The notes under the pieces: generated by a model
Told to the model about the DNA's origin: nothing
Databases searched by the model: none
What the model saw: only the letters and a program-made list of their open reading frames with translations
Made by a program: the position numbers and the translations under genes
NCBI RefSeq assembly: GCF_020010925.1
Contig: NZ_JAGJBZ010000002.1
Span: 3,348,001-3,412,000 of the forward strand
Direction: 5' to 3'
DNA: 64,000 nt
Origin: Streptomyces griseiscabiei
GTDB taxonomy: Bacteria > Actinomycetota > Actinomycetes > Streptomycetales > Streptomycetaceae
In this document: piece after piece, positions 8,094 to 29,611 of the stretch
How the letters are laid out: each line of letters begins with the position of its first letter
Numbering within the stretch: the first letter of the stretch is position 1

Positions 8094-9515
8094 CTAGGGC
8101 CCGTACACCGCCTTCTTGTAGGCGAGCATCTTCTGCATCTCGGCCCCCCTCTGCGAAGGCTCGATCGAGTTCATATGCTCTGCCCTGGTCATCGGATCCT
8201 GCAACTTGAGAAGGAACTCGGCCATCTCTTCCTTCTTGACCACCTCGCGGAACTCCCCCTCGGTGAGCGGAGTCAGTTTCTCCACCCCCCGCTCCTTCCG
8301 CTCGATCCCGACGATGTCGTAGGGCGCTCCCTGCCGCGCGATCCAGCCGCTCTCGCTACCGGTCGCGCCCTTCGCCAGGTACTTCCTCTTGACCTTGATG
8401 GTGAGCACGATGCCGAAGGAGGCTTCCGAGGCGAACCCGGTGGCGATGTGGGACTTCGTCGAGAACTCGATGAGCTTGGCGACATCGTCGTTGAGCTCCT
8501 GGTTCACATATCCCCGGACATGCTCGGGATCGGGCTTCGTGGACTCCTCGTCGGGCTTCGCCGTCATCTTCGAAAGGCTGACGAAGGAGCCGCGGATGAC
8601 CTCCTTCTCCATGGCCTTCCGCTGCGTGGGCGTGATGCCACGTTGAAGGATCACTTCTTGTTCGCTGTCCTCGGCCAGCGACGCGATGTGGTCCTCCCCG
8701 CTGAGGCCCAGCGGACCGTCCTCGAGGGCGATCCGCCGCCCTTCCTCCGACGACTGTCCTTCCTCCAGCATCCGCTGCACGGGCCCGGCGGAGGCGTTCG
8801 CCCCCGTATGCGACGCGACGAGGGACGGGGCGGTCCGCTGACCGGCGGAGTAGGCGTCACCGTCCCGCTCGGCTGCCCGCTCGGAGTCCTGGCGCGGGTT
8901 GGTGACGGTGACTCCGGCGCCGTTGCTGTGGCCCGTCTCGGGCACACCCTTGAGGTTCTTGTCGACGTGGCTGAGTTCGTGGCCGAGCAGCTTCTCGCTG
9001 GCCGCGGCCCCGGCGGAGAGAAAGATGTGGTTGCCGACGGTCATGGCCGCGGCCCCCATGGCCTCCGTGGCACGCTGGGCCACCACGTCGCGGTGGACGC
9101 GCGTGGAGGCGAGGGCGTCGTTCTGGTAGAACTCCCCGGCCTTCGCCACAACTGACGGGGGCAGCGCCTCACTCGGCGACTTCATGGCGGCGGCCAGCAG
9201 CGCGCTCTGCCCTTCCGGCCCGGTGTCGTGAGCGTGCGCATGCTCGTCCTCGGCCCGCGCCACGGTGACATCGGCCGCGGACCGCTGCACCGCCGCCTGC
9301 GCCCGGTGCCCGCACGCCGGACCGTGCTGATGGGGCGCCTGCGCCTCCGGCAGCCCGCCACGCCGAGCCATCTCGGCCACGGCCCTGTTCCCGGCGGCGC
9401 TCTGGAGGTCGAGCATCCGTTGCACGGTCGTTCCGGCGGAGGAGGGAGCCACTCGCGACCGCTGGGGTGCCTTCCCCTTCACCGTCATGACGCCCTCGTC
9501 TCGGGCCAGGCTCAT
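8094..9515 (-). CDS. eCIS-core (DUF4157) domain protein, putative contractile-injection-system effector
   Basis: A 473-residue protein of the DUF4157/eCIS-core family found with extracellular contractile injection systems. The N-terminus has the typical VQRMLDLQSAAGNRAV segment (31-46). The core domain (about 100-230) ends in GHELSHVDKN with a HELSH (HExxH-type) motif at 179-183. A second VQRML occurs at 246-250. The C-terminal 170 residues are a separate domain with FVSLSK (311-316) and GSESGWIARQGAPYDIV (386-402), which might be an ADP-ribosyltransferase-like toxin fold; this is tentative. The start was chosen for GGAGG 7 nt upstream of the ATG. No injection-system structural genes are in the window. 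Confidence 0.75.
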   Translation of the reverse strand: MSLARDEGVMTVKGKAPQRSRVAPSSAGTTVQRMLDLQSAAGNRAVAEMARRGGLPEAQAPHQHGPACGHRAQAAVQRSAADVTVARAEDEHAHAHDTGPEGQSALLAAAMKSPSEALPPSVVAKAGEFYQNDALASTRVHRDVVAQRATEAMGAAAMTVGNHIFLSAGAAASEKLLGHELSHVDKNLKGVPETGHSNGAGVTVTNPRQDSERAAERDGDAYSAGQRTAPSLVASHTGANASAGPVQRMLEEGQSSEEGRRIALEDGPLGLSGEDHIASLAEDSEQEVILQRGITPTQRKAMEKEVIRGSFVSLSKMTAKPDEESTKPDPEHVRGYVNQELNDDVAKLIEFSTKSHIATGFASEASFGIVLTIKVKRKYLAKGATGSESGWIARQGAPYDIVGIERKERGVEKLTPLTEGEFREVVKKEEMAEFLLKLQDPMTRAEHMNSIEPSQRGAEMQKMLAYKKAVYGP

Positions 9516-9684: not shown

Positions 9685-9710
9685 GGTGCGGTCCCCGCCG
9701 GGACCGCACC
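9685..9710 (-). terminator. hairpin terminator after the betaine ABC importer operon
   Basis: A perfect 11-bp stem (9685-9695 against 9700-9710) with a 4-nt loop lies 3 nt beyond the stop codon of the solute-binding protein gene, the last gene of the minus-strand importer operon. The rest of 9516-9713 holds no other recognisable feature. Confidence 0.8.
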
Positions 9711-9713
9711 TCG

Positions 9714-10646
9714 CTACTTCGCCAGTCCGTGCTGCTTCGCGTACGCGTTGGCCACGTCCTCCGGGTCCTTCTTGTCGCTGTCCACCTGGCGGTTGAGCTC
9801 GGTGAGATCCGCGGTGGTGAGGACGTTGCCGAGCCGGGCGAGGGCCTTGCGGACCGTGGAGTCGGCCTTGCGGTCGGCGATGAGGGGGACGACGTGCTGC
9901 CCGGGGATGAGGTCCTTCGGGTCGCTCAGCACCACCCAGTCGTTGTCCTTGATGTCCGTGTCGGTGGTGAAGAGGTTGGCCACGTCGACGTCCCCCTTCT
10001 TGAGGGCGCCCTTGACCAGCGGACCGGAGGAGTCGAGCGACTTGAACTCCTTGAACTCGACGCCGTACACCTCCTTGAGGCCGACGACGCCCACCTTGCG
10101 CTTCTTGACCTCGGGGGCGGCACCGAGGATCAGCTTGCCGTTCTGCTTCCTGAGGTCGGCGAGCGAGGTCAGCCCGTACTTCTCGGCCGTCGCACGGGTC
10201 ACGGCGAACGCGTCGGCGTCCTCGGCCAGGCCGTACGGGAGCACCTGGAGACCGGCGGGGAGCGCGATGGTGAGGGCGTTCTGCATCTCGCCCTCCTCGG
10301 TCGCCGTCGAGTCGTGGTCGAGGTAGTCGAGCAGGGCGCCCTGGTACTCGGGCAGCAGGTCGATGTCGCCGCCCTTGAGGGCGGGGATGACGATCTCGCG
10401 GGTGCCCAGGTTCGGCCGGACCTTCACCTTCACACCGGCCTCGGTCAGGACGGCCGCGTAGAGGTAGCCCAGTATCTGGTTCTCGGTGAAGTTGGCGGTG
10501 CCGATGGTGACGCCGCCCTTGCTGGAGCCGCCGCCGGAGGTGCCCGAGCCCTGGCTGTCGAGTGAGGTGATGCCGCTGGAGCAGGCGGAGAGCGCGGGGA
10601 CGGAGGCCGCGGCGAAGAGGCCGCCGAGGAGAGTACGTCGGTTCAT
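9714..10646 (-). CDS. OpuC/ProX-type betaine ABC importer, substrate-binding lipoprotein
   Basis: A 310-residue lipoprotein with an N-terminal signal ending in the lipobox ALSAC (Cys22), then the OpuAC fold: VTIGTANFTENQILGYLYA, NLGTREIVIPALKGGDIDLLPEYQG and DVDVANLFTTDTDI are family landmarks. It is the last gene of a four-gene importer operon (ATPase, permease, permease, binding protein), 11 nt after the preceding permease. The family imports quaternary amines: glycine betaine, choline, carnitine, and in some members histidine or ergothioneine. Its position divergent from a histidine-lyase-like gene argues for a histidine-derived ligand; that is inference. Confidence 0.88.
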   Translation of the reverse strand: MNRRTLLGGLFAAASVPALSACSSGITSLDSQGSGTSGGGSSKGGVTIGTANFTENQILGYLYAAVLTEAGVKVKVRPNLGTREIVIPALKGGDIDLLPEYQGALLDYLDHDSTATEEGEMQNALTIALPAGLQVLPYGLAEDADAFAVTRATAEKYGLTSLADLRKQNGKLILGAAPEVKKRKVGVVGLKEVYGVEFKEFKSLDSSGPLVKGALKKGDVDVANLFTTDTDIKDNDWVVLSDPKDLIPGQHVVPLIADRKADSTVRKALARLGNVLTTADLTELNRQVDSDKKDPEDVANAYAKQHGLAK

Positions 10647-10657
10647 GGTGAGGTTCC

Positions 10658-11320
10658 CTAGGCGGTGCGGTGGCGGAAGAGGAAGCGCTGGAGGCCGCTC
10701 AGCATCAGGTCGAGGGCGACGGCCACGACGGCTACCAGCACCGCGCCGCCGAGCACCTGCACCAGGTCGCGCTGGGCCAGTCCGTCGAAGACATAGCGGC
10801 CGAGGCCGCCGAAGGAGACGTACGCGGCGATGGTCGCGGTGGCGACGACCTGGATGAGCGCCAGCCGCAGGCCCGTCATGATCAAGGGGAGGGCGAGCGG
10901 CAGTTCGACCTGGAACAGGACCTGGTGGCCGCGCATGCCCTGGCCGCGTGCCGCGTCCTTCACGTCCGGGTCGACGGCCGTCATGCCCGCGTAGGTGTTG
11001 GTGACGATCGACGGGACCGCGAGGGCGACGAGAGCGACGTACACCGGCAGCATCGAGAGCCCGCCGGCCAGGAAGACCAGCACGACCAGGCCGACGGTCG
11101 GCAGGGCGCGGCCGAAGGACGCCAGGTTGATGGCGACGAAGGCGCCCTTGCCGGTGTGGCCGATGAGCAGGCCCAGCGGGAGGCCGATGGCCGCCGCGAT
11201 GAGTGTGGCGAGCAGTGAGTACTGGAGGTGCTCGGCCAGGCGGTGGGCGATGCCGTCGGAGCCGGACCACTGGGCGCCGCTGGTGAGCCAGGAGCCGAGG
11301 TTCTTGAAGAGTTCGTACAT
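10658..11320 (-). CDS. OpuC-type ABC importer permease (distal of two)
   Basis: A 220-residue inner-membrane permease with about five or six transmembrane helices. The ATPase-docking EAA-type loop reads VKDAARGQGMRGHQVLFQVELPLALP and GLGRYVFDGL lies near the end, as in OpuCD/ProW-like half-permeases. The start codon comes 1 nt after the stop of the upstream permease, so the two are translationally coupled and probably form a heterodimeric channel for the substrate delivered by the adjacent lipoprotein. Confidence 0.88.
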   Translation of the reverse strand: MYELFKNLGSWLTSGAQWSGSDGIAHRLAEHLQYSLLATLIAAAIGLPLGLLIGHTGKGAFVAINLASFGRALPTVGLVVLVFLAGGLSMLPVYVALVALAVPSIVTNTYAGMTAVDPDVKDAARGQGMRGHQVLFQVELPLALPLIMTGLRLALIQVVATATIAAYVSFGGLGRYVFDGLAQRDLVQVLGGAVLVAVVAVALDLMLSGLQRFLFRHRTA

Positions 11321-11321
11321 G

Positions 11322-11963
11322 TCAGGCTCGCCGCCTCTTCCAGGGAGTGAGGGCGTACTGCAGGGCGACCAGCGCGGCGTCCGCGACCACGGCGAGCAGC
11401 AGCGTGAGGACCACGCCCGCGATCACCGGCGTCGGGAAGTCCCGCTGGAAGCCGTCGGTGAAGAGCTGGCCGAGGCCGCCGTCGCCGATGTACGTGGCGA
11501 CCGAGACCAGGGAGATCGACATGACGGTCGCGATTCTGACCCCCGCCATGATCACGGGGAGCGCGAGCGGGAACTCGACGGTCAGGAGTGTGCGCAGCGG
11601 GCGCGTACCCATGGCCACGGCCGCCTCCTTGGTCTTCGCGGGCACCGCGTCGAGACCTTCGACCGTGTTCCGCAGCAGCACGACCAGGGTGTAGACGGTC
11701 AGGCCGATGACGGTCGTGGTGCGGGTCAGACCGCTGACGGGCAGCAGGAGCACGAAGATCGCGATCGACGGGATCGTGAACAGCACGTTCGACAGTCCGA
11801 GGAGGACGCCGCGCAGCGGGCGGACCCGGTGGGCCAGAACGGCGAGCGGAAGCGAGATCAGCAGGCCGAGGAGGACGGGCAGGAGCGCGGCCTGGAGATG
11901 GGAGATCGTGAGCGAGAGCAGGTCGTCGGTGTGGCCCGATATCCAGGACCAGTCGATGGTCAT
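11322..11963 (-). CDS. OpuC-type ABC importer permease (proximal of two)
   Basis: A 213-residue permease of the betaine/proline-betaine ABC family with about five or six hydrophobic helices. Landmarks are LSNVLFTIPSIAIFVLLLP, the cytoplasmic coupling loop TKEAAVAMGTRPLRTLLTVE followed by FPLALPVIMAG, and ATYIGDGGLGQLF. It lies 43 nt downstream of the ATPase gene and 1 nt upstream of the second permease gene. It pairs with that permease in the membrane and couples to the ATPase. Confidence 0.88.
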   Translation of the reverse strand: MTIDWSWISGHTDDLLSLTISHLQAALLPVLLGLLISLPLAVLAHRVRPLRGVLLGLSNVLFTIPSIAIFVLLLPVSGLTRTTTVIGLTVYTLVVLLRNTVEGLDAVPAKTKEAAVAMGTRPLRTLLTVEFPLALPVIMAGVRIATVMSISLVSVATYIGDGGLGQLFTDGFQRDFPTPVIAGVVLTLLLAVVADAALVALQYALTPWKRRRA

Positions 11964-12006
11964 GCGGCTCTACCTTCTTTGCTCGTCTCATGACGGGGCA
12001 CAGGCA

Positions 12007-13041
12007 TCAGGCGGCCCGCCGTGCGTCGGTGTGCGCCTGTCCGGCGTGCTGGTTGATGTCATCGCGCGAGGTGACACCGGTGAGCACACCTTCGGGGTCG
12101 ACACGGGCGACCAGGCCGGTGGGGGAGGCGACGGCCTCGTCGAGCGCGGCGAGCAGGGAGTCGGAGTCCTTCAGGGGGCGGACGGGCACGTCGCCGTCGC
12201 CCGACTTCCAGTGCTGCGGCCTGCGGGCCTCGTCGAGTACGAGGCTCCAGGTGCCGCCCTCGGGAGCCGGGCCCTGCGGGACGTCCTTGAGGGTCCTGAG
12301 CGAGAGCAGCTTCAGGCCGCGCTCGGCGCCGAGGAACCCGGCCACGAAGTCGTCGGCCGGCCGGGCGAGCAGTTCGGCGGGTGTGGCGCACTGGACGAGA
12401 TGGCCACCGGTGCGGAAGACGGCGATACGGTCGCCGAGACGTACGGCCTCGTCGATGTCATGCGTGACGAAGACGATGGTCTTGTTCAACTCCTTCTGGA
12501 GCCGCAGCAGTTCGTCCTGGAGCTGGGTGCGTACCACGGGGTCGACCGCGCCGAAGGGCTCGTCCATGAGCAGCACGGGCGGGTCGGCGGCGAGCGCGCG
12601 GGCCACACCGACACGCTGCTGCTGGCCGCCGGAGAGCTGGTGGGGGTAGCGCTTGCCGGCGTCGGCGGAGAGGCCGACCGTCTCAAGCAGCTCGGCGGCC
12701 CTGGCGCGGGCCTTGCGACGGCCGTGGCCGAGCAGCAGCGGCACCGTGGCGATGTTGTCGAGCACCGTGCGGTGCGGGAAGAGCCCGGACTGCTGGATGA
12801 CGTACCCGATGGAGCGGCGCAGTTCCGCCGCGTCCTGCTTGGTGACGTCCTTCCCGCCGACTCGGATGGTGCCGGAGGTGGGATCCACCATGCGGTTGAC
12901 CATGCGCAGGGTGGTGGTCTTGCCACAGCCGGAGGAACCGACCAGGACGGTCACGCCGCCTTCCGGCATGTCCAGGGTGAGGTCGTGCACCGCTGTCGTC
13001 CCATTGGGGAACCGCTTGTGGACCGCGTCGAATTGGATCAT
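12007..13041 (-). CDS. OpuC-type ABC importer ATPase with CBS-like tail
   Basis: A 344-residue ATP-binding subunit, first gene of the importer operon. Walker A GSSGCGKTTT, Q-loop IQQSG, signature LSGGQQQRVGVARALA, Walker B VLLMDEPFGAVDP and the H-loop FVTHD are all intact. The C-terminal 100 residues include a CBS-like segment (PTGLVARVDPEGVLTGVTSRDDI), the domain that senses ionic strength in OpuA-type ATPases; only one CBS motif is clear. The ATG at 13041, preceded by GGGA, is preferred over an ATG 33 nt further upstream without a ribosome-binding site. A near-perfect 18-bp palindrome lies 20 nt upstream of the start. Confidence 0.9.
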   Translation of the reverse strand: MIQFDAVHKRFPNGTTAVHDLTLDMPEGGVTVLVGSSGCGKTTTLRMVNRMVDPTSGTIRVGGKDVTKQDAAELRRSIGYVIQQSGLFPHRTVLDNIATVPLLLGHGRRKARARAAELLETVGLSADAGKRYPHQLSGGQQQRVGVARALAADPPVLLMDEPFGAVDPVVRTQLQDELLRLQKELNKTIVFVTHDIDEAVRLGDRIAVFRTGGHLVQCATPAELLARPADDFVAGFLGAERGLKLLSLRTLKDVPQGPAPEGGTWSLVLDEARRPQHWKSGDGDVPVRPLKDSDSLLAALDEAVASPTGLVARVDPEGVLTGVTSRDDINQHAGQAHTDARRAA

Positions 13042-13060
13042 GAGTTGTCCCTTGCCCGGG

Positions 13061-13078
13061 CTGCATAACGTCATGCAG
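13061..13078. promoter_or_regulatory. 18-bp palindromic operator before the importer operon
   Basis: CTGCATAACGTCATGCAG has CTGCAT/ATGCAG arms and only two mismatched central positions. It sits 20 bp upstream of the importer ATPase start, in the intergenic region shared with the divergent lyase-like gene, and is a likely repressor site. The regulator is not in the immediate neighbourhood. Confidence 0.5.
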
Positions 13079-13089
13079 AGTTCATCGCG

Positions 13090-13106
13090 TCTGAATAACT
13101 TGTCAA
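13090..13106 (-). promoter_or_regulatory. TTGACA box followed by TTATTCAGA, motif shared with the hutU promoter
   Basis: Read on the minus strand, TTGACA is followed 2 nt later by TTATTCAGA. The hutU upstream region (14709-14729) has TTGACT followed 5 nt later by the same TTATTCAGA. TTGACA could be the -35 box of the importer promoter, but no good -10 box is seen at the right distance. The repetition suggests common control of importer and hut genes. Confidence 0.4.
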
Positions 13107-13183
13107 CGGTTCGGCGCCAATCCGTCGTGGCGAGCGATCGATGGACGAGAAGAAGTGTCCATATAGGGGAGGTTTTGGAAGCA

Positions 13184-14692
13184 ATGTCGTCTCAGATTGT
13201 GGACACTTCGAAAGTGAGGCGCGGCGGTTCCGTCGTCCTCGACGGTGTCGCCCTCGACGTCCTGGATGTCGTCCGACTCGCCGACGGCTCCGCACGGCCG
13301 CTGGTCGACGACCACGCGATGGGGCGGATGGCCGACGTCTGGGAGGCCGCCCGCCGGATCGCCGCCGGCGGACGCGTCTACGGCCGCTCCACCGGCGTGG
13401 GCGCCAACCGCGACGAGGGCGTGCCCGCCGAGGAGGCCGCCGCGCACGGCCTGCGGTTGCTGCGCAGCCACGCCGGCGCCATCGGCGAGGAACTCCCCGC
13501 CCGGCAGGTGCGCGCGATGCTCGCCGTGCGCGCCAATCAGCTCCTCGCCGGCGGCGCGGGACTGCGCCCCGGCGTCGTCACCGCCCTGTGCGAGGCGCTG
13601 GAGAGCGGGGCGTATCCGGCCGTCAACGAGTTCGGCTCGGTGGGCACCGGAGACCTCGCGGCCCTGGCGCAGGTGGGGCTGGCACTGGCGGGGGAGCATC
13701 CCTGGCTCGGCGACGGCGCCCCCGAGCCCCAGCTCCTCGACAACAACGACGCCCTGGCCCTCATCAGCAGCAACGCTCTCACTCTCGGCCAGTCCGCCCT
13801 GGCCGTACGCGAGCTGCGCGGACTGCTGGAGGCCACCCAGGTCGTCGCGGCGCTCTCCCTGCTGGCCGTGGACGGCTCGCACGAGGCGTACGCGGCCCCC
13901 GTCCACGAGGCCCGCCCGCACCGCGGTTCCGGCGAGGTCGCCCGCCGGATGCGGGAACTGGTCGGAGCCGAGGACCGGCCCGTCGCCCCTCTCGGACGCC
14001 TCCAGGATCCGTACGGCTTCCGTTGCCTGCCCCAGATCCACGGCCCGGCGCACGAGGCCGCCGACGCCCTGGAGGCCGTGCTCGGCGTCGAGATCAACGC
14101 CGCCGCCGAGAACCCCCTCATCTGCCCCGAAGATCAGGCGGCCTATCACCACGGCGGCTTCTACCAGGCCCAACTCGCCCTCGCCCTGGACCACTTCAGG
14201 CTCGCGCTGGTCCAGGTCGCCCGGCTGTCCACCGCTCGGCTCTCCACCCTGAACGAACCCGCCTACACGCGCCTGCGGCCCTTCCTCGCGGAGGATCGGC
14301 CCGGCTCCTCCGGTGTGATGATCCTGGAGTACGCCGCCGGGGCCGCCCTCGGTGACCTGCGCGCCTTCTCCGCCCCCGCCTCGCTCGGCCACGCTGTACT
14401 CTCCCGGGGCGTCGAGGAACAGGCCAGCTTCGCCTCGCTCGCCGCCCGGCAGACGCTGCGGGCGTGCGGCGCGTACCGGCTCGTCGTCGGCTGCGAACTC
14501 GTCGCCGCCGTACGGGCGCTGCGCCAGCGCGACCTGAAGCCGGACCCCGAGCTGCCCGTCGGGCGGGCGCTGGACCTGGCCGCGTCGGTGCTCGACGCCG
14601 AGCACGCCGACCGGTCGCTCACGGACGACGTCAGCGCGGCGGCCCAACTGCTGGACCGGTTCACGGGCATCTGGCGGGGTGACGGGACGTGA
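13184..14692 (+). CDS. histidine/aromatic ammonia-lyase family protein lacking the canonical MIO triad
   Basis: A 502-residue member of the HAL/PAL superfamily. Conserved landmarks include the catalytic tyrosine region VYGRSTGVGAN, FRCLPQIHGPAHEAADAL and GVEINAAAENPLI. The catalytic MIO cofactor normally forms autocatalytically from Ala-Ser-Gly in GSVGASGDL; here the segment reads FGSVGTGDLAAL, giving Gly154-Thr155-Gly156 or a one-residue deletion. A standard MIO enzyme is therefore doubtful. MIO-less relatives such as ergothionase eliminate trimethylamine from histidine betaines. The ATG at 13184 has GGGGAGG upstream; a TTG at 13175 is possible. It is divergent from a betaine importer and upstream of hutU. 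The family call is firm, the reaction is not. Confidence 0.85.
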   Translation: MSSQIVDTSKVRRGGSVVLDGVALDVLDVVRLADGSARPLVDDHAMGRMADVWEAARRIAAGGRVYGRSTGVGANRDEGVPAEEAAAHGLRLLRSHAGAIGEELPARQVRAMLAVRANQLLAGGAGLRPGVVTALCEALESGAYPAVNEFGSVGTGDLAALAQVGLALAGEHPWLGDGAPEPQLLDNNDALALISSNALTLGQSALAVRELRGLLEATQVVAALSLLAVDGSHEAYAAPVHEARPHRGSGEVARRMRELVGAEDRPVAPLGRLQDPYGFRCLPQIHGPAHEAADALEAVLGVEINAAAENPLICPEDQAAYHHGGFYQAQLALALDHFRLALVQVARLSTARLSTLNEPAYTRLRPFLAEDRPGSSGVMILEYAAGAALGDLRAFSAPASLGHAVLSRGVEEQASFASLAARQTLRACGAYRLVVGCELVAAVRALRQRDLKPDPELPVGRALDLAASVLDAEHADRSLTDDVSAAAQLLDRFTGIWRGDGT

Positions 14693-14708
14693 TCCCTTCA
14701 CCGAGGTG

Positions 14709-14737
14709 TTGACTGGAATTATTCAGAAATGCAAGAT
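14709..14737 (+). promoter_or_regulatory. probable promoter of the hutU operon
   Basis: TTGACT (14709-14714) and CAAGAT (14732-14737) are separated by 17 nt, a vegetative-type promoter 57 nt before the hutU start. The spacer contains TTATTCAGA, also present before the importer operon. The region is markedly AT-richer than its surroundings. Confidence 0.5.
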
Positions 14738-14793
14738 GTGAATATCTCTAACCAAGAGCTGTTGGTGACACACTCATCCGCCAGGAGGCTGCC

Positions 14794-16454
<1,661 letters not shown>

Positions 16455-16458
<4 letters not shown>

Positions 16459-17720
16459 CGTTGGGCGGCACCTCTGGGACTGTCCAGGGCCACAACAACA
16501 CGACTTCCTTCCATGAGATGTGGCGGGACCTTGCACCCATCGGGCGGCACCCCGACTCCGGTGGATATCGGCGCTTCGCGTGGACCGGTGCGGATGCCGA
16601 GTGCCGGGCCTGGTTCGAGGAGCAGGCGCGGGACCGGGGCCTGGACTACGAGGTCGACCGCAACGGCAACCAGTGGGCCTGGCTCGGCGATCCCACGGCA
16701 GGGGATGCCGTGGTCACCGGCTCGCACCTGGACTCGGTGCCCGACGGCGGGGCCTTCGACGGGCCTTTGGGGGTGGTGTCGTCGTTCGCCGCGCTCGATG
16801 AACTCCGCGCCCGGGGCGCCCAGTTCGACAAGCCTTTCGCCATCGTCAACTTCGGTGATGAGGAGGGGGCGCGGTTCGGGCTGGCCTGTGCCGGGTCACG
16901 GTTGGCTGCGGGTCAGCTGACCGTCGAGCAGGCACACCGGCTGACCGACGCCGACGGAATCACCCTGCCCCGGGCGATGGAGGCCGCCGGCTACGACCCT
17001 GAGGCCATCGGGGCGGACCCCGAGCGGCTGGCCCGGATCGGGGCGTTCGTCGAACTCCACGTCGAGCAGGGCCGGGCCCTGGACCTGTCCGGGGACGCGG
17101 TCGGCATCGCGAGTGCCATCTGGCCGCACGGGCGGTGGCGGTTCGACTTCCGGGGCGAGGCCAACCACGCCGGCACCACCCGCCTGGCCGACCGCCGCGA
17201 CCCGATGCTGTCCTACGCCCAGACCGTCCTGGCCGCCCGTCACCAGGCCCAGCTCGCCGGGGCGGTGGCCACCTTCGGCAAGATCTCCGTCGAACCCAAC
17301 GGTGTCAACGCCATCCCCTCCCTGGTGCGTGGCTGGCTCGACTCCCGCGCCGCCGACCAGGAAAGCCTCGACACAGTGGTCGGCGGGATCGAGGAGGCCG
17401 CCCGCGACTACGCCCAGGCGCATGGCATCGATCTGGACATCGTCCGGGAGTCCTTCACCCCGGTCGTGGAGTTCGACCACGCCCTGCGCACCGAACTCGC
17501 CCGCATCCTGGGCAAGGACACCGGTCTGACGGTCCCGGTCCTGGGCACCGGTGCCGGACACGACGCCGGGATCCTCTCCGGGACCGTCCCGACCGCCATG
17601 CTGTTCGTGCGCAACCCCACCGGCATCTCCCACTCCCCGGCCGAACACGCCGCCGAGGACGACTGCCTGACCGGAGTGAGCGCCCTCGCCGACATCCTGG
17701 AAGGGCTGGCCCGCAGGTGA
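16455..17720 (+). CDS. M20 family amidohydrolase (allantoate/N-carbamoyl-amino-acid hydrolase type) in the hut operon
   Basis: A 421-residue binuclear-metal amidohydrolase of the allantoate amidohydrolase/hydantoinase-carbamoylase family. Metal-site motifs are [26 protein letters not shown] and [11 protein letters not shown]; the dimerisation (lid) domain with [11 protein letters not shown] follows. The GTG start overlaps the hutU stop by 4 nt and the gene's stop overlaps the hutF start. Inside a hut operon with hutF and no hutG, it may remove the formyl group from N-formylglutamate, or a carbamoyl group from N-carbamoylglutamate if the pathway runs through hydantoin-type intermediates. Allantoate itself is unlikely in this context. 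Confidence 0.88.
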
Positions 17721-19054
17721 CATCGACGACCTACTGGCTCGAACACGCCTGGCTCGACACCCACGTCGAGCCCGGCGTGACCCTGACCGTGACGGACGGC
17801 CGCATCACCGCCGTCCGCCAGAACCTCGACACCCCGCCGCCCGGCGCAGTGGTCCTGCGCGGCCTCACCCTGCCCGGCCTGGCCAACGCCCACAGCCATG
17901 CCTTCCACCGGGCCCTGCGCTCCACCGTCCAGGTCGGCTCCGGCACCTTCTGGACCTGGCGGGAAGTCATGTACCGGGTGGCGGACCGGCTCACCCCCGA
18001 CACCTACCACGCCCTCGCGCGTGCGGTGTACGCGGAGATGGCGCTCGCCGGGATCACGGCCGTCGGCGAGTTCCACTACGTCCACCACGCCCCCGGCGGC
18101 ACCCCCTACACCGACCCCAACGCCATGGGCGAAGCCCTCATCGCCGCCGCCGACGACGCCGGCATCCGCATCACCCTCCTCGACACCGCCTACCTCTCCG
18201 CCGGCTTCGGCAAGGCCCCCGATACCCACCAACTCCGCTTCTCCGACCACACAGCCGACGCCTGGGCCGAACGCGCCTCCCTCCTCAAGGACCGGGACCA
18301 CGCGAGGATCGGCGCCGCGATCCACTCCGTACGCGCCGTCCCCGCCGGCCAGCTGGCGACCGTCGCACACTGGGCCCAGGAACGCCACGCCCCGCTCCAC
18401 GTCCACCTCTCCGAGCAGACGGCCGAGAACGACGCCTGCCACCAGACCCACGGCTGCACCCCCACCCGCCTCCTGGCCGACCACGGCGTCCTGGGCCCCC
18501 GCACCACCGGCGTCCACAACACCCACCTCACCACCACCGACATCACCCTGATCGGCGACACCGGCACCGGCACCTGCATGTGCCCCACCACCGAACGCGA
18601 CCTCGCCGACGGCATCGGACCGGCCGTAGCCCTCCAGCAAGCCGGCTCACCCCTTTCCCTGGGCTCCGACAGCCACGCGGTCATCGACCTCCTCGAAGAA
18701 GCCCGCGCGATGGAGCTGAACGAACGGCTGCGCACCCGCACCCGCGGCCACTGGACAGCCGCCGCCCTCCTGCGCGCGGCCTCCGCCGACGGCCACACCG
18801 CGCTCGGCTGGGACCAGGCCGGCACCCTGGAGACGGGCGCGCTCGCCGACTTCACCACCCTCGCGCTCGACACGGTCAGGACAGCGGGGCCGCTGCCACG
18901 GCTCGGCGCGGAGACCGCGGTATTCGCCGCGTCGGCAGCGGACGTGACCCACACAGTGACCGCGGGACGGCACGTCGTACGCGACGGGACACACACACGC
19001 GTCCCGGACGTGCCACAAGCCCTCGCGCACGCCATCGCAGCACTCCGCGGATGA
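17717..19054 (+). CDS. hutF: formimidoylglutamate deiminase
   Basis: A 445-residue amidohydrolase-superfamily enzyme converting N-formimino-glutamate to N-formylglutamate and ammonia. Zinc-site motifs are LANAHSHAFHRAL, HVHLSEQTAEN and LSLGSDSHAVIDLLEEARAMEL, the last being characteristic of HutF. The GTG start overlaps the preceding stop (GTGA). It is the last gene of the hutU-M20-hutF operon. Imidazolonepropionase (hutI), needed to make its substrate from the HutU product, does not follow; instead a convergent hutD lies 115 nt downstream. Confidence 0.92.
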   Translation: MTSTTYWLEHAWLDTHVEPGVTLTVTDGRITAVRQNLDTPPPGAVVLRGLTLPGLANAHSHAFHRALRSTVQVGSGTFWTWREVMYRVADRLTPDTYHALARAVYAEMALAGITAVGEFHYVHHAPGGTPYTDPNAMGEALIAAADDAGIRITLLDTAYLSAGFGKAPDTHQLRFSDHTADAWAERASLLKDRDHARIGAAIHSVRAVPAGQLATVAHWAQERHAPLHVHLSEQTAENDACHQTHGCTPTRLLADHGVLGPRTTGVHNTHLTTTDITLIGDTGTGTCMCPTTERDLADGIGPAVALQQAGSPLSLGSDSHAVIDLLEEARAMELNERLRTRTRGHWTAAALLRAASADGHTALGWDQAGTLETGALADFTTLALDTVRTAGPLPRLGAETAVFAASAADVTHTVTAGRHVVRDGTHTRVPDVPQALAHAIAALRG

Positions 19055-19169
19055 CCCGCGAGCCCGTTCTCGCCTCAAAGCCCGCCACCTGCCACCTGCA
19101 ACGTGCCACCCGCATCCCCGTGCGACCGGCGCTCACATACCCCCAAAGGCCGGCCGCCGACTCCCACCA

Positions 19170-19784
19170 TCAACCAGCCGCGGTGATCCTGATCTCGGCC
19201 ACCGTGCCGTCGCCCCGTAGCGTCAGAGCGCCCGGGCTTTCGTGACGGACGCAGTCAAGACGGCCAAGTGCCGTTTCCTGCCCGTCCGGTCCGCTGACCA
19301 CGATCCCCTCGGTGACGGCCATGACGAGCAGGATCTCGCCCGCCGCGCAGGCCAGCTCCCACCCCTGCGCGGCGGTGATGGTGTCCATGTGCACCTGCGC
19401 TCTCGCCCGGCCCCTGCGAGTCATGACATTCATGTCGCGCACGGCGCCCCCCTCCAGCCGACAGTCCGTCGTCGCGTCTCCGGAGAAGGCGAACGGGCTC
19501 AACGGGCCGACCGGATGTGAGGTCCCGTCCACGGTCAACACCATGCCTACGCCCTCGACCAGGGTGATCACGCGGTCGATCCCGGGAAAGGCCGAGAAGG
19601 AGCCTCCCGCGTCCACGTCCGCGACACTCACCCGCCAGTCGAAGCCGTCGCCGCGCTCCGCCGGAGCCGGTGGCACGGGCGCGGAGGTGCGTACGTCGCC
19701 CGACGCAACTTCCCTGGTCGTACCACCGCCGTTCTTCCACGGCATGCTGCGGTATTCGCTCCAGCGCAGAACATCTCCGGCCAT
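19170..19784 (-). CDS. hutD: HutD/Ves family protein
   Basis: A 204-residue bicupin of the HutD (Ves) family. The signature opening is present (YRSMPWKNGGGTTREVA), as are FDWRVSVADVDAGGSFSAFPGIDR and GGAVRDMNVMTRRG. HutD occurs in hut loci of many bacteria and has been proposed to limit histidine-pathway flux by binding a pathway intermediate such as formylglutamate; it has no proven enzymatic role. AAGGAGG 9 nt upstream fixes the ATG at 19784. It is convergent with hutF. The leader is an exceptionally purine-rich tract. Confidence 0.9.
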   Translation of the reverse strand: MAGDVLRWSEYRSMPWKNGGGTTREVASGDVRTSAPVPPAPAERGDGFDWRVSVADVDAGGSFSAFPGIDRVITLVEGVGMVLTVDGTSHPVGPLSPFAFSGDATTDCRLEGGAVRDMNVMTRRGRARAQVHMDTITAAQGWELACAAGEILLVMAVTEGIVVSGPDGQETALGRLDCVRHESPGALTLRGDGTVAEIRITAAG

Positions 19785-19793
19785 CCGCCGCCA

Positions 19794-19846
19794 CCTCCTT
19801 CTTCTTCTTCTGTTTTCTTCTGTCTTCTTTTTCTTCGTCTTCGTCC
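19794..19846 (-). repeat. polypurine tract in the hutD leader
   Basis: On the minus strand about 53 nt are almost only A and G, rich in AAG/AGA triplets, and lead directly into the hutD ribosome-binding site. This is striking in a genome of this GC content. It may keep the leader unstructured; alternatively it is a simple-sequence expansion. Confidence 0.55.
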
Positions 19847-20037
19847 ACTTCGGGCACGTGATCACTGAGCCCGGGCCCAGCCTACGTGTCGGCCAGGGAG
19901 CGGCTGTTCAGCTCAGCTGACCGTCCGATGTACGGTCGGACCGAGAGGAAGGGCCTGATTTCCGGGACTCCGGGACACCGTCGCCCGCGCGCGAGCCTGG
20001 AACAGCTGTCCGTGCCGACGCTGATGCCTCCTGGGTG

Positions 20038-22569: not shown

Positions 22570-22586
22570 TGGATGACAGTCATCCA
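22570..22586. promoter_or_regulatory. 17-bp palindrome between LysR gene and ring-cleavage operon
   Basis: TGGATGAC-A-GTCATCCA is perfect over 8-bp arms. It lies 37 bp upstream of the LysR start and 68 bp upstream of the operon start, a usual place for a LysR recognition site. Confidence 0.55.
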
Positions 22587-22653
22587 CAGGATTCATTTCC
22601 GCGATCACATGATCCAGGTCAGAGTAGTCCGCAACTCAGCAGGAGGACATCTC

Positions 22654-23640
22654 ATGGCAACGCTCACGCAATCCGCCGGCCCCTTCGCGCTCGGCACGCT
22701 CTCGCGGCCGGACGGGAGCCCGTTCCCCGGCCTGGTGGTCGGGGAACGTGTGCTGGACCTGGGCCGGGCCCTGGCCTGGAGGCCGGTCGATGTGCGTGCG
22801 GTGCTGGAGCGCTGGGAGGAGGCCCTCCCGGTCCTGCACGTCCTCGCGGACGAAGAGGCCCTGGAGTGGCAGCCCCTCGACGGCCTGCGGGTGCACGCAC
22901 CGGTCGAGCCCCGGCAGATCTTCCAGTCCGGCGCCAACTACCGCCAGCACGTCATCGACCTGGAAGTGGCCCACCGCTCCCCGGACGACCCCCGCACCGT
23001 CGAGGAGGCACGCGCCGAGATCGCCGCGGTGATGGACCGCCGGGCCGCGGAGGACCTGCCGTACGTCTTCATCGGTCTGCCGAGCGCGATCACCGGCCCG
23101 TACGACGATGTCGTCCTCCCGGCGTGGGCCGAACAGCCGGACTGGGAGCTGGAGTTGGCGGCCGTCGTCTCCCGGCCCGCCCATCGGGTGTCCGTCGAGG
23201 AGGCCCTGGACCACGTCGCCGGGTACACGATCGCCAACGACCTCACCGACCGCGCCACCGTCTTCCGCCGGGACATGAAGGCCATCGGCACCGACTGGCT
23301 GCGCTGCAAGAACGCCCCCGGCTTCACCCCGCTCGGGCCCTGGATCGTCCCCACCGGTTCGATCGCCGACCCGGGCGACCTGCGGGTCACGCTGAAGCTG
23401 AACGGCGAGACCATGCAGGACGAGTCGACCAAGGACATGCTCTTCGGCATCGCGCGCCTGGTCTCGTACATCTCGCAGACCTCCCGACTCCTGCCCGGCG
23501 ACCTGGTGTTGACCGGCAGCCCGGCCGGCAACGGCATCCACTGGGGCAGGCTGCTGCGCGACGGCGACGTCATGGAGGGCTCGATCACCGGACTGGGCGC
23601 CCAGCGCACCCGCTGTCTCGCCGAGGGGGCCGGCGCATGA
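22654..23640 (+). CDS. fumarylacetoacetate hydrolase (FAH) family protein, first gene of aromatic operon
   Basis: A 328-residue FAH-fold enzyme. The N-terminal cap domain (about 1-85) is followed by the catalytic domain, with PRQIFQSGANYRQHV, the metal ligands in DWELELAAVVSR and GYTIANDLTDRAT, and DLVLTGSPAGNG. Such enzymes hydrolyse C-C bonds of acylpyruvates or isomerise/hydrate ring-cleavage products. AGGAGG precedes the ATG at 22654; an upstream in-frame ATG lacks one. It begins an operon of nine tightly spaced genes and overlaps the next by 4 nt. A second FAH-family gene lies downstream, so the two probably act on different ring-fission intermediates. Confidence 0.9.
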   Translation: MATLTQSAGPFALGTLSRPDGSPFPGLVVGERVLDLGRALAWRPVDVRAVLERWEEALPVLHVLADEEALEWQPLDGLRVHAPVEPRQIFQSGANYRQHVIDLEVAHRSPDDPRTVEEARAEIAAVMDRRAAEDLPYVFIGLPSAITGPYDDVVLPAWAEQPDWELELAAVVSRPAHRVSVEEALDHVAGYTIANDLTDRATVFRRDMKAIGTDWLRCKNAPGFTPLGPWIVPTGSIADPGDLRVTLKLNGETMQDESTKDMLFGIARLVSYISQTSRLLPGDLVLTGSPAGNGIHWGRLLRDGDVMEGSITGLGAQRTRCLAEGAGA

Positions 23641-24596
23641 TCGACCGTACGGATCCCGAGGGCGCGATAGCCGAGGCCGCGAAGGCGTACTCGAACTGGG
23701 GGCGCTGGGGCGAGGACGACGTGCTCGGCACCCTCAACTTCCTCACCGAGGACAAGCGATGCGAGGGCGCCGCGCTCGTCCGGCGCGGAGCCAGCTACTC
23801 GCTCTCCCAGCGGTTCGACATGAACGGCCCGCAGAAGGGCTGGCGGCGCCGGACCAACCCGGTCCACACCATGCTCGACACCGGCACCGACGCCGCCCTC
23901 GGCAACCAGGGCTTCCCGCACGGGATCGGTGGCGCCGACGACGTGATCGCGATGCCGTTGCAGTGCTCGACCCAGTGGGACGGCCTCGGGCACATCTTCG
24001 ACCACGGCCACGCCTGGAACGGGCGCCGGGCGGAGAAGGTCGTCACCTCCGACGGAGACCTGGTCACCGGCATCGAGCACATGGCGCCGCACATCGCCGG
24101 GCGCGGGGTCCTCCTCGACGTGGGCCGGGTGATCGGCGCCCAGGGGGAGTTGCCCGACGGGTTCGCCGTCACCGAGGAGCACCTGACCGCGACCGCCGGG
24201 GCGCACGGCGTGCGGGTGGGCCGCGGGGACATCGTCGTCGTACGGACCGGGCAGCTGGCCCGTGTCCGCCGGGACGGCTGGGGCGAGTACGCGGGCGGAC
24301 CCGCGCCGGGACTGTCGTTCACCACCGCCGGCTGGCTGCACCGCACCGAGATCGCCGCGATCGCCACCGACACCTGGGGCTTCGAGGTACGGCCCAACGA
24401 GTTCGAGCACGCCTTCCAGCCGCTGCACCAGGTCGTCATCCCCAACATGGGCCTGGTGATCGGTGAGATGTGGGACCTCGACGCGCTCGCCGAGGACTGC
24501 GCGGCGGACAGCGTGTACGAGTTCTGGCTCACCGCCGCCCCGCTGCCCATCACCGGAGCCGTCGGCTCCCCGGTCAACCCGATCGCCGTCAAGTAG
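23637..24596 (+). CDS. cyclase family (kynurenine-formamidase-like) metal-dependent hydrolase
   Basis: A 319-residue protein of the cyclase family (Pfam 'Putative cyclase'). The metal-site segment reads TQWDGLGHIFDHGHAWNG (about 114-131), with LLDVGRVIG and GDIVVVRTGQL further on. Relatives include kynurenine formamidases and hydrolases or lactonases in aromatic degradation; the usual HxGTHxDxPxH motif is altered (GLGHIFDHGHAW), as in the branch found in such clusters. The ATG overlaps the previous stop (ATGA). It probably hydrolyses an amide, lactone or ring-opened intermediate in this pathway. Confidence 0.82.
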   Translation: MIDRTDPEGAIAEAAKAYSNWGRWGEDDVLGTLNFLTEDKRCEGAALVRRGASYSLSQRFDMNGPQKGWRRRTNPVHTMLDTGTDAALGNQGFPHGIGGADDVIAMPLQCSTQWDGLGHIFDHGHAWNGRRAEKVVTSDGDLVTGIEHMAPHIAGRGVLLDVGRVIGAQGELPDGFAVTEEHLTATAGAHGVRVGRGDIVVVRTGQLARVRRDGWGEYAGGPAPGLSFTTAGWLHRTEIAAIATDTWGFEVRPNEFEHAFQPLHQVVIPNMGLVIGEMWDLDALAEDCAADSVYEFWLTAAPLPITGAVGSPVNPIAVK

Positions 24597-24642
24597 CCAC
24601 CCGGTTCGCCGCCAAGTGGACTTCGGAACGAAGGAGTTCCCC

Positions 24643-25773
24643 GTGAACACAGCCCGCAGAGTGCTCGTCGTCGGCGGAGGTGCCTCCGGCAACGCCGTGA
24701 CCGTCCTGTTGCGCCGCGCCGGTCTCGCCGTCGACCTGGTCGAGGCCAGGCCCGACTGGAACGCCACCACCGGCTCCGGCATCACCCTCCAGGGCAACGC
24801 CCTGCGCGTCCTGCGGGAGCTGGGCGTCTGGGAGCAGGTGAGCGCCTCCGGCTACGCCTTCGGCACGCTGGGCATCACCGCCCCCGACGGCACGGTGCTG
24901 CACGTCGCCGAGGACATCAGGACCGGCGGCGACGACCTGCCCGCCACGCTCGGCATGCAGCGCCCCCGGCTGCAGCAGATCCTCATCGACGCGGTCCGCG
25001 CCTCGGGCGCCACCGTCCGCCTGGGCACCACCGCCGAGGCCCTGGAACAGGACGCCGACGGCGTCACGGTGCGCTTCGGCGACGGCACCGAAGGCCGCTA
25101 CGACCTGGTGATCGGCGCCGACGGCCTCAACTCCGCCACCCGCGCCGCGATCGGCATCACCGACAAGCCGGAGCCGACCGGGATGGCCATCTGGCGCGTC
25201 GCGGCCCCCCGCCCCGAGGGCGTGGAACGCTCCGACCTGGCCTACGGCGGCCGGGCCTACATCGCGGGCTACACCCCCACCAGCGAGAACACCCTCTACG
25301 CGTTCGTCGTCGAGGCCTGCCGCGACCGCGCCTCGATCGACCCGGCCTCCTACGCCGACGAGATGCGCCGCGCCGCGCAGGGATACGGCGGGTGCTGGCC
25401 GGCGATCGTCGAACACATCACCGACCCGCGGAAGGTGAACTACACCTGGTTCGACCGCCTGCTGGTCGACGGCTCCTGGCACCGGGGCCGCGTCGTGCTG
25501 ATCGGCGACGCCGCCCACTGCTGCCCGCCCACCCTGGCCCAGGGCGCCGCCATGTCCCTGGAGGACGCCCTCGTCCTCGCCGAACTGCTCACCGGCGGCC
25601 GGGACTGGGACGACGAGCTGTTCCGGACCTACCACGAGCGCCGCGTCGCACGTGTGCGGCCGGTCGTCGAGGCGTCCGTGCAGATCGGGCAGTGGCAGCT
25701 GGACGGGGTGCGCGACGCCGACGTGCCGGGCCTGATCGGCCGCACCATGAGCATGCTCAAGGAACTGCCGTGA
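24643..25773 (+). CDS. FAD-dependent class A monooxygenase
   Basis: A 376-residue flavoprotein hydroxylase of the salicylate/3-hydroxybenzoate hydroxylase type. The FAD-binding Rossmann motif is VLVVGGGASGNAV (8-20), followed by LVIGADGLNSATR (about 158-170, the DG motif) and VLIGDAAHCCPP (about 285-296, the GD motif). Such enzymes use NAD(P)H and O2 to hydroxylate a phenolic ring. AAGGAG lies 6 nt before the GTG start. In the operon it would introduce the second hydroxyl needed for extradiol cleavage. The exact aromatic acid is not deducible. Confidence 0.9.
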   Translation: MNTARRVLVVGGGASGNAVTVLLRRAGLAVDLVEARPDWNATTGSGITLQGNALRVLRELGVWEQVSASGYAFGTLGITAPDGTVLHVAEDIRTGGDDLPATLGMQRPRLQQILIDAVRASGATVRLGTTAEALEQDADGVTVRFGDGTEGRYDLVIGADGLNSATRAAIGITDKPEPTGMAIWRVAAPRPEGVERSDLAYGGRAYIAGYTPTSENTLYAFVVEACRDRASIDPASYADEMRRAAQGYGGCWPAIVEHITDPRKVNYTWFDRLLVDGSWHRGRVVLIGDAAHCCPPTLAQGAAMSLEDALVLAELLTGGRDWDDELFRTYHERRVARVRPVVEASVQIGQWQLDGVRDADVPGLIGRTMSMLKELP

Positions 25774-26831
25774 CCGCGCCCACGGCGGACGCCCACGCGG
25801 CCACGGCGGATGTCCACGCGCCCACGGTGGACATGCACGCGCCCACGGTGGACGTGCACGCGCACGTCCTGCTGCCCGAGGTCGACGCCCTGGTGGCGGA
25901 CCTGCCGGGACTCGCCGAGGCCCGGGCCCTCGACGCCCGCCGCAACGGCCCCGCGGCACTCGCCGTCAGCGGCCCGATGGTCCGCGAACGCGCCCCGAGG
26001 ATGATCGACGTCACCGCACGGCTGGCCGCCATGGACGCCCAGGGCGTGGACGTCCAACTCGTCAGCCCGTCCCCGTCGCACTACCACTACTGGGCGGACG
26101 AGGAGACGGCCGAGAAGGTCCACCGGCTCGCGGGCGAGGCGACCGCCGCCCACTGCGCCCACGCCCCCGAGCGCCTGCACGGACTCGGGCTGGCCCCCAT
26201 GCAACACCCCGAGTTGGCCGTACGCGCCCTCGAACACGCTCTGGAACTCGGCCTGTCGGGCATCGAGATCTCCAGTAATGCCCCGGGACGTGAACTCTCC
26301 GACCCGGCCTACGAACCGCTCTGGACCCGGGCCGAGGAGACCGGAGCCATCCTCTTCCTGCACCCCTTCGGCTGCACGCTCGACGAGCGTCTCGACCGGT
26401 GGTACCTGTCCAACGTCGTCGGCCAGCCGGTGGAGAACGCGGTCGCGCTGTCGCACCTGATCTTCTCCGGCGTACTGGACCGCCATCCCGGTCTGAAGCT
26501 GATCGCGGCCCACGGCGGCGGCTATCTGCCCACCCACATCGGCCGCTCCGACCACGCCTGGTCTACCCGCCCCGACGCGGGCGCCGGCTGCGCCCGTCTG
26601 CCCAGCAGCTACCTCCGACGCCTCTACTTCGACTCCCTCGTCCACGACCCGCACGTCCTGCGGGAACTCGTCCGGGTGGCGGGCGCGGACCGGGTCCTGC
26701 TCGGCTCCGACTACGCCTTCGACATGGGCACCGAGAACCCGGTCGCCGCCCTGCGCGCCGCCCGGCTGCCCGACCCCGACTTCCACGCCGTCCGCGGCGG
26801 CAACGCGGCAGCCCTGCTCGACCTCAACTGA
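25770..26831 (+). CDS. amidohydrolase-2 family protein (ACMSD/resorcylate-decarboxylase-like)
   Basis: A 353-residue metal-dependent TIM-barrel of the amidohydrolase_2 family, whose members are mostly non-oxidative decarboxylases of aromatic or muconate-type acids. Metal-site features are TVDVHAHVLLPE near the N-terminus, FLHPFGCTLD, LIAAHGGGYLPTHIGR and LLGSDYAFDMG. The GTG start overlaps the previous stop by 4 nt. Residues 3-30 consist of four tandem copies of a 7-residue unit (A-P/A-T-A/V-D-x-H), the last being the real DxHxH metal motif. Probable role: decarboxylation of a hydroxylated aromatic acid or ring-opened product. Confidence 0.88.
   Translation: MTAPTADAHAATADVHAPTVDMHAPTVDVHAHVLLPEVDALVADLPGLAEARALDARRNGPAALAVSGPMVRERAPRMIDVTARLAAMDAQGVDVQLVSPSPSHYHYWADEETAEKVHRLAGEATAAHCAHAPERLHGLGLAPMQHPELAVRALEHALELGLSGIEISSNAPGRELSDPAYEPLWTRAEETGAILFLHPFGCTLDERLDRWYLSNVVGQPVENAVALSHLIFSGVLDRHPGLKLIAAHGGGYLPTHIGRSDHAWSTRPDAGAGCARLPSSYLRRLYFDSLVHDPHVLRELVRVAGADRVLLGSDYAFDMGTENPVAALRAARLPDPDFHAVRGGNAAALLDLN
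25776..25859 (+). repeat. four tandem in-frame 21-bp repeats at the amidohydrolase N-terminus
   Basis: Four consecutive 21-bp units beginning GCG(C/G)CCACGG and ending in a histidine codon repeat the 7-residue motif A-P/A-T-A/V-D-x-H. The third and fourth copies differ at two bases only. The last copy is the conserved metal-binding DxH of the enzyme, so the others are duplicated copies of the true N-terminus. Confidence 0.85.
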
Positions 26832-26856
26832 AGCCTGAAGCCAGAAGAAGGCCCCC

Positions 26857-27795: not shown

Positions 27796-27831
27796 CCAGC
27801 GCCCGTTCGCCTCCCGCCGACAGGACCCACC

Positions 27832-29549: not shown

Positions 29550-29611
29550 GCGGCACGACCCCAGCAGCAACCCAGCAGGAACAGAGAAGGAACAGAAAGG
29601 CCCCCTTCCCC

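Follow-up and report, generated by a model that had tools for sequence, protein, structure and literature searches.

Introduction

The oxidative degradation of ergothioneine, which Nalivaiko, Vasseur and Seebeck reportedly described in Angew Chem in 2024, is said to combine an ergothioneine dioxygenase with a metal-dependent sulfinate desulfinase and to end at hercynine. PMC11818489 has ergothioneine dioxygenase yielding trimethylamine, a statement not relied on here. Ergothionase, a member of the aromatic-lyase family (PF00221), works without the 4-methylideneimidazole-5-one (MIO) cofactor, as PMC13405746 also states. For uptake, PMC9732360 reports that EgtU holds ergothioneine via F293, Y341, Y419, Y443, N339, K242, T296 and R379, that the G244F substitution makes ergothioneine binding about 100-fold weaker, and that the affinity of wild-type EgtU for hercynine is lower by a factor of about 10,000. 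We compare with these systems a locus of Streptomyces griseiscabiei in which an OpuC-type ABC importer diverges from an aromatic-lyase gene without the MIO triad, followed by hutU. It lies in a 64-kb window (the whole stretch of DNA analysed; contig NZ_JAGJBZ010000002.1, positions 3,348,001 to 3,412,000) of a 10.6-Mb genome, and coordinates without a locus or contig name are positions within that window.

On the sequence evidence, the best single reading, and in our view a probable one, is that the lyase is a hercynine trimethylamine-lyase that feeds the hut pathway; we infer its substrate, its product, the elimination chemistry and the imported ligand as follows. The enzyme, needing no MIO cofactor, would split hercynine (Nalpha-trimethylhistidine) by removal of the beta-proton and loss of the quaternary amine, releasing trimethylamine and forming urocanate. 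HutU, HutI (encoded elsewhere), HutF and an M20 enzyme would then carry urocanate to glutamate, and the divergent importer would supply hercynine or a precursor such as oxidised ergothioneine.

Results

The lyase has a shortened loop without the MIO triad

Domain and profile searches of the window proteins found all components of the OpuC-type importer on the minus strand, from 9714 to about 13041, next to the lyase and hutU:

9714 to 10646, minus strand: OpuAC-family, lipoprotein-like substrate-binding protein with an altered pocket (PF04069, 176 bits)
10658 to 11320, minus strand: ABC permease 1 (PF00528; NCBIfam ProW-like, below cut-off)
11322 to 11963, minus strand: ABC permease 2 (PF00528)
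12007 to 13041, minus strand: ProV-type ATPase (TIGR01186, 307 bits against a cut-off of 327; the open frame reaches 13074)
13184 to 14692, plus strand: MIO-less aromatic-lyase-family gene, 502 amino acids, predicted hercynine trimethylamine-lyase (PF00221, Lyase_aromatic, 375 bits)
14794 to 16458, plus strand: hutU, canonical urocanate hydratase (TIGR01228, 895.5 bits, cut-off 375)

The ATPase start is placed at 13041 because an operator motif (see below) overlaps the longer frame. A preliminary description had listed an importer divergent from a gene of the histidine ammonia-lyase (HAL) family without the MIO triad, then hutU, an M20 amidohydrolase, hutF and hutD, and the profile searches recovered every one of these.

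The loop of the window lyase reads GSVGTGDLAAL where Pseudomonas putida HAL has GSVGASGDLAPL; it is one residue shorter and lacks the MIO serine. The loop of Treponema denticola ergothionase (PDB 6s7j), SSIGEGDI, has the same length as that of the window lyase. The alignment with ergothionase and HAL that the preliminary description had proposed thus shows a loop shortened as in ergothionase and no MIO triad. On the HutH model TIGR01225 the lyase scored 281.5 bits against a cut-off of 539. Two sets of lyase loci, scanned in six frames, carried a GT[GA]D loop in 40/40 (the 40-locus set) and 80/80 cases (the 80-locus set), as did all 22 aligned rows of the clade defined below. A HutH-like Streptomyces lyase outside the clade (L248; G046:C250) has the loop GSLGTGDLQPM and matches the window lyase at 26% and HutH at 34%.

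The HAL positions that we tabulated belong to the active site, and Tyr53, His83, Gln277, Arg283 and Glu414 are retained in 22/22 clade rows. HAL Asn195-Gly-Thr becomes Ser-Ser-Asn in the clade (Gly or Ser in six rows) and Ser-x-Asn in ergothionases, and the HAL Tyr280 position is Tyr or Phe in the clade, with Ala in one row and Tyr in the window lyase. Loop length, GVG and SxN are common to the window lyase, 6s7j and four relatives of 6s7j, and occur in none of the ten HALs tabulated, two of which are PDB entries with the triad printed as X. After GVG, all five ergothionase-type rows read NKD and the window lyase reads ANRD.

A decayed, non-catalytic hutH remnant would account for the missing MIO triad, but it is hard to reconcile with five active-site residues kept in every clade row and with a conserved operator, and we consider it very improbable. 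We rejected a degraded hutH, the alternative in the preliminary description, on these grounds together with the conserved clade and its coexistence with HutH. An MIO-free trimethylamine-lyase fits better, given the loop in 120/120 loci, that coexistence, and a grouping with ergothionase when all alignment columns are used.

Trees were built with an MIO-bearing outgroup; they included 15 of 34 further lyase loci (L220-L253) and excluded the second lyase of L107. The actinobacterial lyases formed a clade of their own with support of 100/100, both in the all-column tree and with active-site columns masked, and the window lyase fell in this clade, not in that of the characterised ergothionase. The all-column tree united the clade with the ergothionases and a third shortened-loop group (100/99). 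Judged from these trees, the clade is real and separate, and its exact kinship is tentative. The third group, from Streptomyces (L220, L221 and L250), groups with the ergothionases and has the loop GSIGASDLCQM in L220 and L221.

The linked hydratases tested are canonical

NCBIfam has separate models for HutU and thiourocanate hydratase. The window HutU scored 645 and 690 bits on two thiourocanate hydratase models, below their cut-offs of 930 and 880. The HutUs of the window and of L091, L097, L107, L121 and L135 all passed the HutU cut-off and reached 626-663 on the thiourocanate model (cut-off 930), on which the hydratase at an ergothionase-like locus of Burkholderia arboris, a positive control, scored 1044. 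Because the linked hydratases tested are canonical, the product of the lyase should be urocanate, and since a trimethylated histidine is to give urocanate, hercynine is favoured over ergothioneine as the substrate. The preliminary description had offered urocanate or thiourocanate as the product and ergothioneine or hercynine as the substrate; the first product and the second substrate are the ones these HutUs favour, and the other two are disfavoured.

The same evidence bears on the proposal that the lyase is itself an ergothionase, with ergothioneine as its substrate and thiourocanate desulfurised or excreted. It would explain the loop length and motifs shared with 6s7j and the presence of egtABCD nearby in two genomes. 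Yet the hydratases tested are canonical, two HutU copies are the only HutU homologues found in the source genome, the lyase lacks Leu280 and NKD, and the binding protein lacks the EgtU specificity residues, so that this proposal seems unlikely.

No canonical hutH was found in the source genome

All 60 other Streptomyces genomes sampled had a PF00221 match above 580 bits (HutH), and the MIO loop GSLGCSGDLAP was present in 30/30 of the HutH loci checked among the 60 found. The source genome had no such high-scoring match, the sole case among 61 Streptomyces, and two MIO-less lyases were the only lyases of the family found in it. Searched with the hutH region of a relative, its DNA matched the flanks alone (best 40 of 1231 candidates). 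Its other hut-pathway genes are nevertheless kept, some of them in two copies. Close homologues of the MIO-less lyase occur in 26/60 of the other Streptomyces, all of which keep a high-scoring HutH, and canonical HutH, hutU, M20, MIO-less lyase and importer are co-located in L091, L092, L097 and L103.

An MIO-independent histidine ammonia-lyase, served by a histidine importer and substituting for the missing HutH, would suit a genome in which no HutH is seen and the hut genes are kept and duplicated; the Asp pocket of the binding protein could accommodate an alpha-ammonium, and a grouping with HALs is not rejected in the masked tree. But eliminating ammonia from histidine is understood to require MIO, all 26 other Streptomyces in the sample that carry the lyase retain a high-scoring HutH as well, and loci with both lyases exist. 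We regard this explanation as quite unlikely.

The rest of the operon lies downstream of hutU:

16455 to 17720, plus strand: M20 amidohydrolase, a member of the hut operons seen in this analysis (NF006770, 663 bits, cut-off 372)
17717 to 19054, plus strand: hutF, formimidoylglutamate deiminase (TIGR02022, 550 bits, cut-off 413)
19170 to 19865, minus strand: hutD-family gene (PF05962, 166 bits)

The M20 amidohydrolase, which scored 282 bits on the ErtE model (cut-off 520), would presumably act as a deformylase. No hutD homologue was found by tblastn in the other lyase loci searched. The block hutU-M20-hutF (14780-19058, plus strand) is a second copy of C6:77494-81792, 97.4% identical over 4.3 kb, with the identity ending near gene borders; the copies differ by 32 synonymous and 4 non-synonymous codons in hutU and by 1 and 0 in hutF. 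Contig C6 also carries the one hutI in the genome that exceeds the family cut-off and, in the same region, a lyase paralogue with 83% protein identity to the window lyase. Window DNA from 9712 to 14677 is 88% identical to Streptomyces acidiscabies and from 9694 to 14678 87% identical to Streptomyces niveiscabiei, and window bases 1-40000 have no other match to those two loci. With the match confined to them, the importer and the lyase travel together.

Some lyase loci carry a thiol dioxygenase and an amidohydrolase

In 11 of 124 lyase loci we found a thiol dioxygenase, accompanied by a LacI gene and an ACMSD-like amidohydrolase. Its match to PDB 8qfr/8qfl stands at 1e-82, against 7e-6 or weaker for other cysteine dioxygenases; we take 8qfr/8qfl to be ergothioneine dioxygenase, although the PDB labels them simply as cysteine dioxygenase. 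A pair of searches over 394 genomes (the same sample by its handles; all counts are lower bounds) placed the dioxygenase in at least 23, the lyase in at least 31 and both in at least 11, where 1.8 are expected (hypergeometric p = 8e-8, uncorrected for kinship), and in 8 of these 11 co-occurring genomes the two genes sit close to each other. The amidohydrolase also neighbours the dioxygenase in 15/15 dioxygenase loci distant from a lyase, so the pair also works without an adjacent lyase. The source genome has the amidohydrolase (73%). It also has an EgtD gene over the cut-off and can therefore probably make hercynine and ergothioneine, both of which it would be expected to recycle.

The importer pocket is altered

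The closest solved structures to the window binding protein are Lmo1422, AfProX and EgtUC, each at 95-97 bits. Aligned with EgtU, the window protein has Tyr at F293, Asp at Y341, Phe at Y419, Gln at Y443, Asp at N339, Ala at K242, Ala at T296, Arg at R379 and Phe at G244 (K242 and G244 mapped via Lmo1422), with Arg at T275 and with E375 and R379 retained. It has two of the four aromatic residues of the betaine cage and failed a test for all four. Both the Asp at Y341 and the Arg at T275 recur without exception in the 27 further linked binding proteins aligned from the 40-locus set, where those of L093, L097, L099 and L103 gave no usable alignment row, and in 56/56 aligned in the 80-locus set, 56 being the number of its loci that gave a full binding protein. 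Among six other OpuAC proteins of the source genome, two have the full cage, one has an altered pocket and three (L015, L020 and L021) were not alignable. An importer with the same altered pocket lies on contig C1 (L257:8194-13832) with an RpiR-family gene, a desulfinase-like amidohydrolase and the motif of the lyase promoter.

By its pocket residues, the window importer is neither an EgtU nor of the normal betaine-cage type. The EgtU-like ergothioneine importer of the preliminary description is not supported, with the EgtU specificity residues and two of four cage residues missing. The imported ligand would be either hercynine, seated differently, or a compound bearing an N-H, and this is the weakest part of our case. 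The Asp pocket would fit another Nalpha-substituted histidine (mono- or dimethylhistidine, or oxidised ergothioneine) as the substrate of the lyase, a possibility helped by the invariance of its Asp and Arg and one that leaves the constraint of a urocanate product unaltered. Against it, desulfinated ergothioneine is hercynine itself, and di- and monomethylhistidine are, to our knowledge, not abundant as free nutrients; such a substrate is unlikely, if still credible.

Layout and candidate operators are conserved

In the 40-locus set the importer is divergent from the lyase in 26/40 loci, with an IclR gene between them in L093, L096, L097 and L103; a related binding protein lies nearby in another layout in 5/40, and a hutU match was found in 19/40. 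The 80-locus set has a divergent importer in 58/80, an RpiR gene within 1.5 kb in 76/80 and hutU in range in 67/80. The divergent layout persists down to about 41% lyase identity. On a plasmid of Arthrobacter sp. StoSoilB13 the order on one strand is IclR-ATPase-permease-permease-binding protein-hutU-lyase, and in L091 (EgtA-D over cut-offs) and L092 (by similarity) egtABCD share the same 20 kb with the lyase, hut genes and importer.

Two motifs lie upstream of the window lyase and hutU, respectively:

13061 to 13096, no strand assigned: candidate operator in the importer/lyase gap, CTGCAT-N6-ATGCAGAGT-N10-TGAAT
14720 to 14744, no strand assigned: conserved inverted repeat upstream of hutU, TATTCA-N13-TGAATA

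A 21-bp part of the first, CTGYAT-N6-ATKCAGRGT, has three sites at one mismatch or fewer in the 10.6-Mb genome (0 for a reversed-pattern control): one precedes the window lyase, another the C6 lyase, and the third lies on C1 between the second importer and the amidohydrolase there. TGAAT stands ten bases past the motif at all three. The operator is present in 76/80 and 18/40 loci of the two sets, the 18 all being Streptomyces. Next after the C6 lyase comes an RpiR-family gene (PF01418), to which a gene beside the C1 importer is 73.5% identical, and RpiR may control the motif. The inverted repeat occurs in 84/90 hutU upstream regions and at no other site in 124 loci (2.5 Mb). The presence of this separate repeat makes it probable that transcription of the window hutU is not just read-through from the lyase promoter.

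On a plasmid of Paracoccus saliphilus (L131:6911-8599), an ergothionase-type gene directly follows hutI-hutH-hutG-hutU, with a canonical HutU and a TRAP transporter near; this is possibly the same chemistry in Proteobacteria. An ornithine cyclodeaminase-family gene accompanies a lyase that is divergent or of ergothionase type, both in an actinobacterium (L107:13476-15978) and in Polaromonas (L130:9693-10697), the two being 53% identical. Elsewhere in the window, an eCIS_core domain gene (PF13699, 64 bits; 8097-9515, minus strand) adjoins the importer, and FAA hydrolase, putative cyclase, FAD_binding_3, Amidohydro_2 and CoA transferase domains at 22573-29998 downstream resemble a cluster for aromatic-compound breakdown.

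Discussion

Several observations weigh against a hercynine lyase fed by this importer. Besides the Asp in place of a cage Tyr, another cage position is Gln, Glu or Ala in every linked binding protein aligned (27/31; 56/56), and a cage altered in all of them argues against a standard trimethylammonium ligand. No importer was found nearby in 9/40 loci and no divergent one in 22/80, and the related importer on C1 has no lyase beside it. Leu occupies HAL position 280 in 5/5 ergothionase-type rows (6s7j and four relatives), where most of the clade retains Tyr or Phe, and, because L248 carries GTGD outside the clade, the GT[GA]D loop alone cannot define it. The preliminary description had held that a lyase that groups with true HALs and deaminates histidine would refute its proposal: the all-column tree shows no such grouping, but with active-site columns masked it is not rejected (p-AU 0.21), and the MIO-less rows form one clade in just 42% of bootstrap trees. 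We broadened the motif pattern manually (K, R) so that it admits the third site, where the match is exact by construction; the lack of further genomic sites is unaffected by this. The dioxygenase and amidohydrolase are only presumed to be the ergothioneine-to-hercynine enzymes; 12/23 dioxygenase genomes had no lyase among the matches listed, and no close dioxygenase homologue was found in the source genome. Finally, the egtABCD linkage comes from two genomes of one genus.

With these points counted, a hercynine trimethylamine-lyase remains our preferred reading of the window gene. More tentatively, and at somewhat less than even chances, we propose that Actinobacteria own a dedicated clade of such enzymes, one more without MIO, that links ergothioneine oxidation by dioxygenase and desulfinase to histidine degradation via urocanate, and that two lyases, two non-cage importers and a desulfinase-like enzyme form a small regulon here, HutH being absent and the hut pathway dependent on betaine, not on histidine.

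We found no publication on a hercynine lyase at the level of titles and abstract openings, in a search whose coverage excludes most subscription journals. If such an enzyme is at work, it may be a missing step in the consumption of ergothioneine by soil bacteria: it would connect desulfurised ergothioneine with central metabolism and point to a soil source of trimethylamine. It would also correct the naming of the family, most named matches being labelled aromatic amino acid ammonia-lyase or histidine ammonia-lyase. The fate of hercynine is directly testable with one purified enzyme.

Comparison with known systems

With oxidative ergothioneine degradation, 11 lyase loci have in common a dioxygenase homologue and an ACMSD-like amidohydrolase. 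The reported endpoint of that pathway is, however, hercynine, from which the lyase would take the next step, and in the window genome the amidohydrolase was found but no close dioxygenase. With EgtU, Lmo1422 and AfProX the window importer shares an OpuAC-family binding protein, including E375 and R379, but K242, G244, T275, T296, Y341, Y419 and Y443 of EgtU are replaced, and the window binding protein is a separate gene. HutH and the window lyase share the fold, Tyr53, His83, Arg283, Glu414 and linkage to hutU, and the overall score of the lyase to HAL equals or exceeds that to ergothionase; HutH has the MIO triad, whereas the window lyase has none and its clade co-occurs with true HutH. With ergothionase 6s7j, to which residues 15-484 align at 143 bits, the lyase shares the PF00221 fold and the shortened, MIO-less loop. 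Ergothionase differs in having Leu280, NKD and a thiourocanate hydratase as its partner, where the window clade has Tyr or Phe (Ala once) and a canonical HutU.

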